38,846 bases of DNA from an uncultured Bacillota bacterium. GTDB taxonomy: Bacteria > Bacillota_I > Bacilli_A > RF39 > UBA660. Positions within the stretch are counted from its first letter, which is position 1. Each line of letters opens with the position of its first letter. A model generated the notes under the pieces. It was not told where the DNA came from. It searched no databases and was given only the letters and a program-made list of their open reading frames with translations. Of this stretch, positions 30,892 through 36,176 are shown piece by piece. Location of the stretch: NCBI GenBank assembly GCA_947168485.1, contig CAMVLZ010000014.1:1-38846 (forward strand), read 5' to 3'. A program made the translations under genes and the position numbers.

Positions 30892-31684
30892 TATGCACCT
30901 CAATTTGATTATAAGGAATCTTTACCTGTTCTTTTTCTAAACGTTTCTTTATTTCTTCTCTTAAGAATCTTTGTGTTTCATAATGTTTAGTTGGTTCTGT
31001 TTCAACAACGACTCTATATACTACTGAAGAATCTGATAAATCATTAACTCCTAATAATCTTAATTCTCCTGTTGCATTTGGTATTTTTCCTTTTAAATCT
31101 TCAATAATCTTATTAAATATCTTTTTAACTCTTTCATTATCTTCTTCATAGGCAACTGCTACATCAACTATTGCTAAAGAATCATTAATTGAATAATTAA
31201 TAACTTTATCCATATATCTATTAGCAACTATATATGTTGATCCATTAAAATGTCTTATTCTTGTAGTTTTTAATCCTATAAATACTACTTCTCCTAAGAA
31301 TCCATCTACTTCAATAGAGTCTCCTATTTCATAATTACCTTCACTTATAATAGAAAAACCTGCTATTAAATCTTTTGCCATATCTTGGAAAGCTAAACCA
31401 ATTATTGCAGTTGTTATTCCTAATCCTGCTACTAATGATGTAACATTTATTCCAAAATTTGCTAATATAGCTAAGATTTCTATAATTACTATTATATATT
31501 TAATTATATTAATAATAAGTGTATTTATAGTTTTAATACGTTGTTTTCTTTGTTCAGACATTCTTTTATTAGCATGATGTGAAGCTTTTATTATTATATT
31601 CTTTATTATCTTATAAACTATAATTCCTATTACTATATATATAATAGGTTGAATTATTATTTTTAAATCTATATTATTTAACAT
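30881..31684 (-). CDS. mscS: Small-conductance mechanosensitive channel, MscS family
   Basis: TSLVAGLGITTAIIGLAFQDMAKDLIAGFSIISEGNYEIGDSIEVDGFLGEV. Confidence 0.93.
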   Translation of the reverse strand: MLNNIDLKIIIQPIIYIVIGIIVYKIIKNIIIKASHHANKRMSEQRKQRIKTINTLIINIIKYIIVIIEILAILANFGINVTSLVAGLGITTAIIGLAFQDMAKDLIAGFSIISEGNYEIGDSIEVDGFLGEVVFIGLKTTRIRHFNGSTYIVANRYMDKVINYSINDSLAIVDVAVAYEEDNERVKKIFNKIIEDLKGKIPNATGELRLLGVNDLSDSSVVYRVVVETEPTKHYETQRFLREEIKKRLEKEQVKIPYNQIEVHNGK

Positions 31685-32577
31685 TAGTTACCACTCTCAT
31701 TCAAATTCATGATTTCTAATATTCTATTAAGATCATTAACATTAACAAATGAAATTTCTATCTTATTAGATTTAACTTTTACTTTAGTTCCTAATTTTTC
31801 ATTTAAAGCTTCTTCTAAATATTTATATTCATTTGTATCTTTTTTCTTTGTTACTTTATTTCTTCTAGTAAAATCTTTTGAAGAAGAAGTCATATTTTCT
31901 AATTCATGAACACTTATTCCTTCTTTAACTATTTTATTAGCTAAGAATTCTTGTTGTTCTTTACTTTCTAGTTTAGATAATACTCTTGCATGAGCCATAG
32001 ATAAATCTTTTGATTCAATCATACTTTGAATTGATGTTGGTAATGTTAATAATCCTAACATATTTGTTATATGTGATCTTGATTTACCTAATCTTTTAGC
32101 TAATTCTTCTTGTGTTAAATTTAAATTTTCTTGTAGTTTTTTATAAGCATTTGCTTCTTCTACAGCATTTAAATTTTCTCTTTGAAGATTTTCTAAAAGA
32201 GCAATCTCCATCATTTCTTGATCATTGAAATCTCTAATGATTGCTGGAATTTCTTCAAGTCCTGCTATTGTTGATGCTTTAACTCTTCTTTCTCCAGCAA
32301 TTATTTCGTATCCTTTGATACCTTTTTTTACTATAATTGGTTGAATTACACCATGTTCTTTAATAGAAGCAGCTAATTCATTTAATGCTTCTTGATCAAA
32401 TACTTTTCTAGGTTGATATGGATTAGCATGTAATTCATTTAATTTAATATTTTCAATAGCATCTTTTGGTGTTTCGTTTATAATTCTTTCTTCTACTTGT
32501 TCATAATTAATTGGTTCATTATTAAATAATTCTTCAAGACCTCTTCCTAGAGCTCTTCTTTTATTATCAGTTTCCAT
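31684..32577 (-). CDS. parB: Chromosome partitioning protein ParB (Spo0J)
   Basis: KRRALGRGLEELF, GYEIIAGERRVKAS, MEIALLENLQRENLNAVEEANAY, GKSRSHITNMLGLLTLP. Confidence 0.95.
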   Translation of the reverse strand: METDNKRRALGRGLEELFNNEPINYEQVEERIINETPKDAIENIKLNELHANPYQPRKVFDQEALNELAASIKEHGVIQPIIVKKGIKGYEIIAGERRVKASTIAGLEEIPAIIRDFNDQEMMEIALLENLQRENLNAVEEANAYKKLQENLNLTQEELAKRLGKSRSHITNMLGLLTLPTSIQSMIESKDLSMAHARVLSKLESKEQQEFLANKIVKEGISVHELENMTSSSKDFTRRNKVTKKKDTNEYKYLEEALNEKLGTKVKVKSNKIEISFVNVNDLNRILEIMNLNESGN

Positions 32578-33352
32578 TTCTAGCAATCACTTCCTTAGCC
32601 AAATTTATATATGCTTCTGATCCTCTACTCTTTGGATCATATGCAATAATTGGTTCTCCATGAGATGGAGCCTCTGTTAGTCTTACTAATCTAGGAATTA
32701 TTGTGTTATATACTTTTTCTTTAAAGAATTTTCTTATTTCTTCTACTACTTCAAATCCTAAATTAGTTCTAGAATCTAACATAGTTAATAGAACCCCTTC
32801 TATATTTAATGTTGGATTTAAATTCTTTTGAGCCAACATTATTGTTCTTAATAATTGAGTAATTCCTTCTAAAGCAAAGAATTCACATTGTACTGGAATA
32901 ATTACTGAATTAGATGCTGTAAGAGCATTAGTAGTAATTACTCCTAATGATGGAGGACAATCTATAATAATATAATCATATTCATTCTCAATTGGAGATA
33001 AATATTTCTTTAATTGTTCTCCTTTAGAAAAGTTCTCTTCTTTTTTACTTCTTTCAATTAACTCTATATTTATTCCTGCTAAATTAATAGTAGCTGGTAT
33101 TACTGATAAGTTCTTATATTTTGTTCTTATGATTGCTTCATTTATATTACAATCACCTATTAAAACATCATATATGCTCTTATCTATATCACCCTTGTTT
33201 ATACCAACACCAGTTGTAGTATTTCCTTGAGGATCTAAATCTATTAATAAAACTCTTTTTCCAAGAGCTGCTAAAGATGCAGAAAGATTGATGCTAGTTG
33301 TTGTCTTTCCTACTCCACCTTTTTGATTTACTAAAGATATTGTCTTTCCCAT
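32567..33352 (-). CDS. parA: Chromosome partitioning ATPase ParA (Soj)
   Basis: MGKTISLVNQKGGVGKTTTSINLSASLA, LLIDLDPQGNTTTGVG, IIDCPPSLG. Confidence 0.97.
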   Translation of the reverse strand: MGKTISLVNQKGGVGKTTTSINLSASLAALGKRVLLIDLDPQGNTTTGVGINKGDIDKSIYDVLIGDCNINEAIIRTKYKNLSVIPATINLAGINIELIERSKKEENFSKGEQLKKYLSPIENEYDYIIIDCPPSLGVITTNALTASNSVIIPVQCEFFALEGITQLLRTIMLAQKNLNPTLNIEGVLLTMLDSRTNLGFEVVEEIRKFFKEKVYNTIIPRLVRLTEAPSHGEPIIAYDPKSRGSEAYINLAKEVIARNGN

Positions 33353-33418
33353 CTTATCACCCATTTCTTAATTACTAATTTATTGTATCAAATATTGGGT
33401 TTTTTTTAAATGTTTTTA

Positions 33419-33446: not shown

Positions 33447-34775
33447 TTATTTATCTATTTTAATTATAACTTGATATTTTTGTGGGAAGTCCATTTCTTC
33501 CATAGAAATACTTATTCCTTTTTCCTTTAAAGAATTAACTAACTCTTTAATATTATCTTTAGCTGTATCAACAGTAACTTCCTCATTAGGTTGTTCTTTT
33601 TGTTCTCCAATATCTATTTCATTTGGAAGATTAATTTCTGATAAATCAGGAGTCTTGAAATAATCTTCTACATTAGAAGTTTCATCATCTTCTGTAGTTT
33701 CAGCTGTTTTTACAATTGCTTCAGCTGGTGTTAAGAAGTTTCCTTCTTTTGGTTCTTGTTTAACTGTTGGTGTTGGTAAATTTAGTAAACTATCAAGTGA
33801 TGAACCTCCAGTTGCTGGAACTGAATTAATATCTTGAGCATTATTCTTTATATCTTCTACATTAGGTGTTGTTCCAGTTAAAAATGTATGTGAACTATTA
33901 TCTTCTTCATCTTCATTATCATCTATATTACTATAATCTAAGAATTTTTCTTCTCCACCTGGATTATTATCATCAAGTATTTTTACTTTTCCTACTTCTT
34001 CAGTTGGATCTTTTATTTCAGTAGTAGGTTTAAGTGGAGCATTATTGATAAAATTATTCAAAAAATTTTCAGGACCTTTACTTTCTGTTGCTGGTGGTGT
34101 ACTAGGTTGGTCTACAGGTTGAGGTATATCTGTTGGACTAGGTACTTTTTCTTCTTTTTCTTTTCTTGGATATATTTTATCTATTTCTTTTTCTAAATCT
34201 CTAACATTAATTTTTTCACTTATTACTCTTTTTAACATTTCTGTTTGTTTTGCTGAATCCTCTATTCTTAATAGTGTTCTAGCGTGACGTTCAGAAATTT
34301 CTTCAGATAGAAGTGCTTTTTTTACATCATCATTTAATTGAAGTAATCTTAATTTATTTGCAACTGCTGATTGTGATTTACCCATAGTTTTAGCTAACTC
34401 TTCTTGTGTCATTTCATCTAACTCAAGAATTTTTTGGTATGTTTTAGCTTCTTCTATAGGATTAAGATTTTTTCTTTGTAAGTTTTCTAGTAGTGCAACT
34501 TTTGATGATTCTTTATCATCTAAATTATTAATAATTGCAGGTATAGTAGTTTTTCCTGCTAAAGCAGATGCTTTATATCTTCTTTCTCCAGCAATTATTT
34601 CATATTTACCATTAACTGATCGAACTATAATAGGTTGAATAACACCATGTTCTTTAATAGAAACAGCTAATTCTTTTAATGCTTGATCATCAAATACCTC
34701 TCTAGGTTGAAACTTATTAGGTATGATATCATTTAGGTTTAATTGTACTACTTCTTTTTTATCATCTTGATTCAT
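33447..34775 (-). CDS. noc: Noc-type ParB-family protein with extended acidic linker
   Basis: ParB CTPase motifs (GKYEIIAGERRYKAS, VALLENLQRKNLNPIEEAKTY), Noc-like GKSQSAVANKLRLL and ISERHARTL, C-terminus TVDTAKDNIKELVNSLKEKGISISMEEMDFPQKYQVIIKIDK. Confidence 0.88.
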   Translation of the reverse strand: MNQDDKKEVVQLNLNDIIPNKFQPREVFDDQALKELAVSIKEHGVIQPIIVRSVNGKYEIIAGERRYKASALAGKTTIPAIINNLDDKESSKVALLENLQRKNLNPIEEAKTYQKILELDEMTQEELAKTMGKSQSAVANKLRLLQLNDDVKKALLSEEISERHARTLLRIEDSAKQTEMLKRVISEKINVRDLEKEIDKIYPRKEKEEKVPSPTDIPQPVDQPSTPPATESKGPENFLNNFINNAPLKPTTEIKDPTEEVGKVKILDDNNPGGEEKFLDYSNIDDNEDEEDNSSHTFLTGTTPNVEDIKNNAQDINSVPATGGSSLDSLLNLPTPTVKQEPKEGNFLTPAEAIVKTAETTEDDETSNVEDYFKTPDLSEINLPNEIDIGEQKEQPNEEVTVDTAKDNIKELVNSLKEKGISISMEEMDFPQKYQVIIKIDK

Positions 34776-34842
34776 AAGCATCCCTCTATTCTTTCCTATA
34801 ATATATTATATATTATTTTTATATATCTTTCAATTAAAAAAT

Positions 34843-34866
34843 AAAAACTCTTAATAAAGAGTTTTT
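34843..34866 (-). terminator. Terminator overlapping the stop of the YbaK-like gene
   Basis: AAAAACTCTT AATA AAGAGTTTTT; stop 34865-34867. Confidence 0.75.
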
Positions 34867-35401
34867 ATAATTCAACTATTTTAGCTTCATGATTTATATT
34901 TGGAAGTATTACTTCTAATAAATCTTTAGTTTTTATTTTTATATGACGTAGACTTGTTCCTGTATTACATGAGAAGTATTCTTCTTCTGTGATTGGTTTA
35001 TCTATTACTACTTGAACTTTTCCTTCTACATCTTTTATAGAACATAATACACTTGCACTACCTGGAGTCACTCCAACTATATCTAATAAGTCATCTACAC
35101 TAGCAAAAGATACTCGTGAGCATTCCATTTCTCTAGAGAAATCTTTTGTTACAAATGGTTTATCTGCTGGAAGTACTACTAGATAATATTGAGTCTTTTG
35201 TCTATTGCATACAAATACTGTTTTTCTTATTTCTGATCCTAATTTTTTATCTAGTTCTATGCAAGACTCCATAGTATTAGCTTCATCATTATCAATTCTT
35301 TCAAAATCAATATTTAATTCTTTTAACTTATTAAATATTAACTCTTCTACCTCATTTTCAAATTTTTCAGGTATCTCTTTTGTAATTTCACTTATGTACA
35401 T
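34865..35401 (-). CDS. YbaK/ProX (PrdX-type) aminoacyl-tRNA deacylase domain protein
   Basis: LGSEIRKTVFVCNRQKTQYYLVVLPADKPF, GVTPGSASVLCSIKD, CNTGTSLRHIKIKTKDLLE; SD GGAGATATTT before ATG at 35401. Confidence 0.82.
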   Translation of the reverse strand: MYISEITKEIPEKFENEVEELIFNKLKELNIDFERIDNDEANTMESCIELDKKLGSEIRKTVFVCNRQKTQYYLVVLPADKPFVTKDFSREMECSRVSFASVDDLLDIVGVTPGSASVLCSIKDVEGKVQVVIDKPITEEEYFSCNTGTSLRHIKIKTKDLLEVILPNINHEAKIVEL

Positions 35402-35440
35402 AAATATCTCCTTTTTTATTTGATTATATACCTTTTTAAT

Positions 35441-35480
35441 AAACAAAAAAAGAGAAAAATTAATTTTCTCTTTTTTGTTT
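35441..35480 (-). terminator. Long-stem terminator after rsmG
   Basis: AAACAAAAAAAGAGAAAA / TTTTCTCTTTTTTGTTT near-perfect inverted repeat. Confidence 0.7.
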
Positions 35481-35534
35481 TTTCTTACTTCAGTTGATGC
35501 TGGTAATGATGCTATTTTTATAGAATAAATAACC

Positions 35535-36176
35535 TTATTTTTCAATGTTTGTAATACTTATTAAACTTCTTTTACTCTTCTCAATAGGTAATTCAAATTT
35601 AATAATTTTTTCTATTTTATACTTTTTATTTAACTTTTCTTCTACTTCTTTAGTTAATTCAGAATCAATATCAGCTTTCATAGCAATAAGTTTTCCATTC
35701 TTTTTAACTAAATGCATTGTATAATCCATTAACTTTTCAATGTTAGCTACTGCTCTTGATGTAACTATATCAAATTTTTCATTATATTCTTCTGCTCTAA
35801 TGTGAATAGTTCTTATTCCTTTTAATTGTAATTTATTTATTACTTCATCAAGAAACTTAAGTTTCTTTTCTCTAGCATCTACTAATACTATATCTAAATG
35901 TGGATAAAATATTTTCAATACAACTCCAGGGAAACCTGCTCCTGTACCAATATCACATAGAGTATTATAATCATTTAAATCTATTATTTTATTAATAGTT
36001 AGTGAATCATAAAAATGTTTTAAATATACTTCTTCTTTATCAGTAATTCTCGTTAAATTTATCTTAGAATTCCATTCTATCAATAGGTTAAAATACTCCT
36101 CTAGTTTTGATAATTGTTCTTTTGTAGCATTTATTCCTAACTTATTAAGTTCTTCTATAAATATTTTATCTGTCAT
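35535..36176 (-). CDS. rsmG: 16S rRNA m7G527 methyltransferase
   Basis: YNTLCDIGTGAGFPGVVLKIFYP, IVTSRAVANIEKL. Confidence 0.96.
   Translation of the reverse strand: MTDKIFIEELNKLGINATKEQLSKLEEYFNLLIEWNSKINLTRITDKEEVYLKHFYDSLTINKIIDLNDYNTLCDIGTGAGFPGVVLKIFYPHLDIVLVDAREKKLKFLDEVINKLQLKGIRTIHIRAEEYNEKFDIVTSRAVANIEKLMDYTMHLVKKNGKLIAMKADIDSELTKEVEEKLNKKYKIEKIIKFELPIEKSKRSLISITNIEK

Follow-up and report, generated by a model that had tools for sequence, protein, structure and literature searches.

Noc is usually described as a membrane-anchored protein with many binding sites over most of the chromosome, and the large gut-associated lineage analyzed here departs from both parts of this description. 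After loading at its DNA sites (NBS), Noc closes in a CTP-dependent manner to form a sliding clamp, which goes on to bind the membrane (PMC8429893). We analyzed a 38,846-nucleotide stretch of DNA from an uncultured Bacillota bacterium (GenBank contig CAMVLZ010000014.1, hereafter the window), which encodes a Noc homologue with a long acidic linker and without the N-terminal membrane-targeting helix.

The noc locus and the identity of its product

The noc ORF (33447-34781, reverse strand) encodes 444 aa from the ATG at 34781, or 442 aa from a second ATG at 34775. On the same strand, it comprises a ParB_N CTPase domain (34476-34754, residues 10-102), an HTH_ParB domain (34176-34472, residues 104-202), an acidic low-complexity linker of ~197 aa (33576-34166, residues about 206-402), and a Noc-type C-terminal domain composed of a helix and a beta-hairpin (33450-33575, residues 403-444). 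The gene adjoins soj (ParA; 32567-33364) and has rsmG (35535-36176) as a conserved neighbor; parB (31684-32586) encodes the ParA-binding motif ALGRGLEELF, and all three genes also lie on the reverse strand. A YbaK-like deacylase ORF (34865-35545), the listed TTG start of which is probably upstream of the true start, separates rsmG from noc. The noc, soj, and parB genes are linked in the window, unlike in many other family genomes (G021, G030, G026, and others), where the gap between noc and parB amounts to tens of kb or whole contigs. An integrase-like ORF at 72-1385, with the look of a tyrosine recombinase by eye, lies beside secA at the contig edge, where an integrated element may end. The relatives that form the family are labelled uncultured Bacilli, Erysipelotrichaceae, or other Firmicutes and come largely from animal gut and rumen.

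The assignment of the window ORF to Noc, as proposed in the preliminary description, was confirmed by phylogeny. In a maximum-likelihood tree built from 54 core domains (32 Noc and 22 ParB proteins from the window family and other Bacilli families), ParB and Noc were split at a support of 100/100, with the window protein on the Noc side. The family Nocs, including the window protein, formed one group (support 93/91), and the ParBs of relatives formed a clade apart from noc. All 22 ParBs in the tree carry the ParA-binding motif, and the corresponding LG[RK]GL motif was looked for in the window Noc and was absent. The best curated family of the window ORF in NCBIfam was TIGR04285 (nucleoid_noc; E-value 5e-86). 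Its score of 288.2 bits is below the curated cut-off of 315 bits because the alignment covers only profile positions 1-203 of 255, ending at the start of the linker; the Noc of the nearest relative scored similarly (289.5 bits). The window ParB also matched this profile (241 bits), so TIGR04285 alone does not decide between Noc and ParB, and the decision comes from the tree. The closest solved structures by sequence were the Geobacillus and Bacillus subtilis Noc proteins, and Noc entries ranked top in the fold search.

The residues that govern DNA specificity and CTP binding point in the same direction. Residues Q137, K143, Q148, and R165 of the window Noc correspond to literature positions 173, 179, 184, and 201, and among the 79 family Nocs the equivalent of 173 is Q in 78, that of 179 is K in 78, and that of 201 is R in 77. 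The window Noc thereby has the NBS-type combination of Q173, a K or R at 179 or 184, and R201 (PMC7383237). Of the two CTP-binding motifs, both present in the window Noc, GERR is invariant and EN.QR nearly invariant among the 79 proteins. The residues listed in the preliminary description, including a Gln at 184 in place of the Lys of Noc, were as stated, but no meaning could be attached to this replacement: position 184 holds almost any residue across the 79 family Nocs, and their DNA sites remain canonical. No special explanation is needed because a K or R at 179 or 184 was enough for most NBS-specific variants in published selection data (PMC7383237).

ParB (Spo0J) shares with Noc the CTP-clamp fold, a nearby gene, and an origin-proximal site cluster, and differs from it in having R at 173 and the ParA-binding motif, in binding parS, and in belonging to the separate clade. 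The ParB of the window clade (L034, L035) has Ala (SMAHAR) at the position where ParB orthologues reportedly have an invariant Gly201; Gly or Ser is found there in other family ParBs. A third match to ParB_N, a short one within a frame of 79 aa, was observed in one genome (L003; G000:C20:8084-8272) and is probably a fragment or a plasmid-type relic. Based on these sequence comparisons, we concluded that the window ORF is a true Noc, an orthologue in a family of small-genome Bacilli.

Absence of the N-terminal membrane-targeting helix

The N-terminal amphipathic helix that targets Noc to the membrane is absent from the window Noc, as had been noted from its sequence. An upstream in-frame start was searched for, and none was found: the first ATG is preceded by eight in-frame codons (YIIGKNRG) and then by TAA, and a hidden N-terminal helix is excluded since these eight codons hold no other start. 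The 79 family Nocs likewise have no helix-sized extension. They begin 14-30 residues, typically 16-18, before the PN[RK]FQPR motif, and much of this segment already forms part of the fold's first strand. Every Noc homologue examined previously had a predicted N-terminal amphipathic helix (PMC4331003), and the family Nocs depart from that statement. The window family is not alone in having lost the helix, since some short-linker Nocs of families f13 and f19 (L155, L195, L197, L198, L203) also start directly at the CTPase fold.

A conserved acidic linker in front of the C-terminal domain

The linker of the window Noc consists of P, E, D, T, S, N, Q, and G residues to 68% and has a net charge of about -31. 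Long Nocs were present in every family genome where noc was found, with linkers of 88-469 aa (median 203 aa) and a median net charge of -25 among the 79 proteins. The long acidic linker of the preliminary description was thus borne out, at ~197 aa, and is conserved in relatives. AlphaFold2 prediction with the 79-row family alignment as input gave confident core domains and a linker of low confidence (~205-400). The C-terminus was predicted at residues 404-442 as a helix followed by two strands (pLDDT >90), and its consensus in 79 relatives reads AI..IR.....L...G......E.DF...YQIIIKI.K. The alignment and the model both support the earlier assignment of the C-terminal 42 residues as a Noc-type, predicted dimerization domain.

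A Pfam search with the linker alone matched no family. Within otherwise unalignable surroundings, however, the linkers share a bipartite motif, [DN]hxxIKxNAxDI (motif D) followed by LDxLL (motif D2). Motif D was scored with a position-weight matrix trained on half of the family and tested on the other half, both ways, against shuffled decoys; 57 of the 79 linkers exceeded the 1% decoy threshold, and 50 of these exceeded every shuffled decoy. Where D2 is present (40 linkers), it follows motif D by 6-13 residues in all cases except one (39 of 40). In the window Noc, motif D is NVEDIKNNAQDI (33828-33863, residues 307-318) and D2 is SLDSLL (33783-33800, residues 328-333), both on the reverse strand, and short helices were predicted at these places (308-314 and 329-332), with a confidence of the block of about 78 at best. 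A detectable motif D is missing from 22 of the 79 linkers, and therefore one partner may not serve all. A fixed order of a further motif, E, after D was rejected, as it held in only 21 of 37 cases.

Three hydrophobic linker segments had been singled out as possible partner-binding motifs, and all three exist. One of them, SSLDSLLN, is part of the widely conserved module, whereas conservation of the remaining two, FLNNFINNAPL (34032-34064, reverse strand, residues 240-250) and EDYFKTPDL, is largely limited to the closer clade, in which the former takes the form F[LV]N..PL.PT. The linker motif EDYFKTPDLSEINLP (33624-33668, reverse strand, residues 372-386) is likewise kept in this clade. This conservation supports the view that the segments may be motifs of a partner-binding type. 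Neither a C-terminus that fails to align, nor an upstream start supplying a helix, nor close relatives lacking the linker, each of which the preliminary description had named as grounds for abandoning its reading, was encountered.

Canonical Noc sites of the relatives lie near the origin, often among parS sites

The canonical Noc site, ATTTCCCGGGAAAT, was searched for in 15 genomes with up to two mismatches, so that the obtained map covers canonical sites only. Exact sites were found in 13 of these genomes, 27 in total and few in each. All 27 are origin-proximal: 24 lie on the noc contig at a distance of at most 24.7 kb from noc, and the remaining three adjoin parS in G009 or fall within the gyrA-tadA spacer in G060. 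Of the 10 one-mismatch sites, eight are origin-proximal and two, both from one genome (G019), have an unplaced position, whereas two-mismatch matches were at control level. The 10-mer TTCCCGGGAA occurred in 50 of the 58 family genomes, with almost no occurrence of its reversed control. The family genomes are mostly metagenome assemblies.

The gyrA-tadA spacer in many of the fetched regions contains NBS mixed with canonical parS (TGTTTCACGTGAAACA). One such region (L166) has eight NBS, each paired with a parS. Another (L123; G022:C1:88500-90147) is built of tandem units of ~79 bp, in which 13 NBS alternate with 12 parS up to the contig end, and similar sets occupy this spacer in L121, L124, L126, L131-L133, L137, and L138. 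The members of a parS-NBS pair are 45-60 bp apart in L166 and L138. Further NBS precede or separate mnmE and mnmG, or lie a short way upstream of noc or upstream of gyrB; others fall inside dnaX, ybaB, mfd, or rsmI. Two genomes have the order [parS/NBS]-gyrA-gyrB-...-dnaN-dnaA-...-yidC-...-mnmE-mnmG-rsmG-noc, and in G057 dnaA is located between the cluster (about 8 kb away) and noc (6 kb away).

In the window's own genome, the assembly of which is without the gyrA query region, no NBS was detected within two mismatches. The nearest relative, whose Noc is 81% identical, has only a one-mismatch NBS, which in the expected spacer (L162) is flanked by one parS on one side and by two on the other. 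NBS-like 12-mers (TTTSSSSSSAAA) were not found in the own genome either, and another candidate, TTCTCGTGAA, which seemed repeated there, was dropped because it did not exceed its control in the family.

The sites located inside genes suggest that the NBS sequence itself is maintained. In rsmI of four genera (L168, L171, L172, L175), the NBS falls on the same codons, ATT TCC CGG GAA ATA (ISREI), and in dnaX of three genera (L163, L174, L177) it is likewise encoded by the same codons, in a variable region of the gene. The codons TCC and CGG account for none of the 5317 codons of the window. The NBS DNA itself seems conserved since the in-gene sites use codons that are otherwise unused in the window, which is strong evidence for selection on the sites themselves. 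Taken together, the canonical sites of the relatives suggest that NBS in this family are confined to the origin region, among parS sites. This origin-only map goes beyond the preliminary description.

Proposed function of the family Noc

From the anatomy of the protein and the site map of the relatives, we infer that Noc of this family is probably an origin-marking clamp whose linker docks partners, and not a nucleoid-covering, membrane-anchored protein. Noc clamps would load CTP-dependently at NBS beside ParB clamps and remain on the origin segment; these loading and clamp steps should be kept because the CTP-binding motifs, the specificity residues, and the sites of the relatives are kept. 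The membrane step is missing at its usual place, and docking by the linker would stand in for direct membrane binding. The linker joins the HTH to the C-terminal domain and would therefore be expected to line the DNA-holding ring of the clamp and make it larger, while its motifs would present a docking surface to an origin partner, possibly a protein of division, replication, or segregation. Sites restricted to the origin would make the Noc complex a marker of the origin region and not of the nucleoid. The earlier proposal that nucleoid occlusion may proceed without direct membrane anchoring was thus upheld in one respect, as the usual N-terminal helix is absent, but the origin-only site map of the relatives opposes genome-wide occlusion and argues that this is not the job of the family Noc.

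Profile searches identified no MinD above the curated cut-off in any of the 58 family genomes. The best MinD-profile matches shown were mostly soj genes adjoining parB, and the window soj, the top match of its genome, fell well short of the MinD cut-off. The family therefore seems to lack a Min system. We tentatively suggest that Noc and ParB may together form a single composite complex on the interleaved NBS and parS near dnaA. Within it, Noc clamps with an enlarged, motif-bearing linker would recruit a partner, and origin position would be coupled to division in this way instead of by membrane-based nucleoid occlusion or by the apparently absent Min system.

The site map bears on two other explanations, both of which we regard as unlikely. 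Noc could mainly restrain firing by DnaA, with the linker docking DnaA or another initiation factor. By analogy, this reading draws on Staphylococcus aureus, where cells without Noc over-initiate replication and suppressors map to dnaA (PMC5540599), and it is consistent with the location of NBS within about 10-20 kb on either side of dnaA. However, the dnaA spacer itself contained none of the NBS observed, most of which lie beyond gyrA or near mnmE, mnmG, or noc. The alternation of parS and NBS, both in the ~79-bp tandem units and in the closely spaced pairs, would instead fit an auxiliary centromere, in which Noc, alongside ParABS, helps to segregate the origin or load SMC instead of acting in division; but Noc is without the ParA-binding motif, and the interleaving may also reflect co-duplication or a common need for origin proximity.

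The linker bears on two further readings. Membrane binding could have moved instead of being lost, so that a linker segment ([KN]FF[NST][LFM] or LDxLL) touches the membrane and the classical mechanism persists from an internal position. A strict KFFN-like motif was counted in 13 of 72 linkers, where shuffles predict 0.14, and a looser form in 33, where they predict 5; the motif is similar to the Phe pairs found in known Noc helices. We nevertheless find this relocation improbable: the family linkers are strongly acidic, whereas the B. subtilis helix requires flanking positive charge (PMC4331003), and the strict FF form is uncommon, with the window Noc having NFLT at that place. That the linker is a neutral spacer of unconstrained length, with motifs alike through shared ancestry only, is also improbable in our judgment. 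Its wide range of lengths and mostly unconserved sequence would agree with such a spacer, but motif D persists between genera with unalignable linkers, the spacing from D to D2 is tight, and the motif scores are far above those of shuffles. The origin-marking clamp with a partner-docking linker is the reading that we favor, and on sequence grounds the family appears to separate the CTP-clamp activity of Noc from membrane binding and genome coverage. It offers a natural system for asking about the role of Noc at the origin and about the partner that it recruits.

Comparison with known Noc systems

The literature searched, which excludes most subscription papers, does not describe any Noc with a long linker or with sites restricted to the origin. 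A partial parallel was found in family f17 (L157/L189), where Noc also has a long acidic segment and NBS near noc on one contig. The acidic segment of roughly 390 aa (L157; L189:2874-4916) is placed after the C-terminal domain in these proteins and ends in DGFWNLFK, and the short N-terminus is hydrophobic (MALFNRK); the FWNLFK-bearing tail might be a relocated membrane-binding end. Origin restriction is separable from the inserted linker, since the f17 NBS lie near noc without a linker inserted before the C-terminal domain. In single-contig genomes of other families (G071, G085, G106), sites with at most one mismatch were located from ~50 kb to >1 Mb from noc, although some of these far sites may be chance matches.

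The Noc proteins of B. subtilis and Geobacillus (PDB 7ol9, 7nfu, 7ng0, and 6y93) have the same CTPase and HTH fold, the same Q/K/R residues, and the same type of C-terminal domain as the window Noc. The gene order rsmG-noc-soj-parB is also the same, apart from the YbaK-like ORF between rsmG and noc in the window, and the canonical NBS is that found in the relatives of the window. In contrast, the Noc of these bacilli has an N-terminal amphipathic helix and a short linker, while the window Noc has neither, its linker being ~197 residues long. The distribution of sites differs as well: about 70 NBS are distributed around most of the B. subtilis chromosome (PMC4331003). The spread over most of the chromosome apart from the terminus that marks classical nucleoid occlusion was not found in the 13 relatives with exact sites, where the few NBS are origin-proximal in 27 of 27 cases. 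The Noc of S. aureus comes closer, sharing the core NBS, an origin-side bias, and a possible role in replication, but almost all of its 41 sites fall in the 700 kb nearest to the origin (PMC5540599), whereas those of the window family are few, mixed with parS, and located within about 25 kb of noc.
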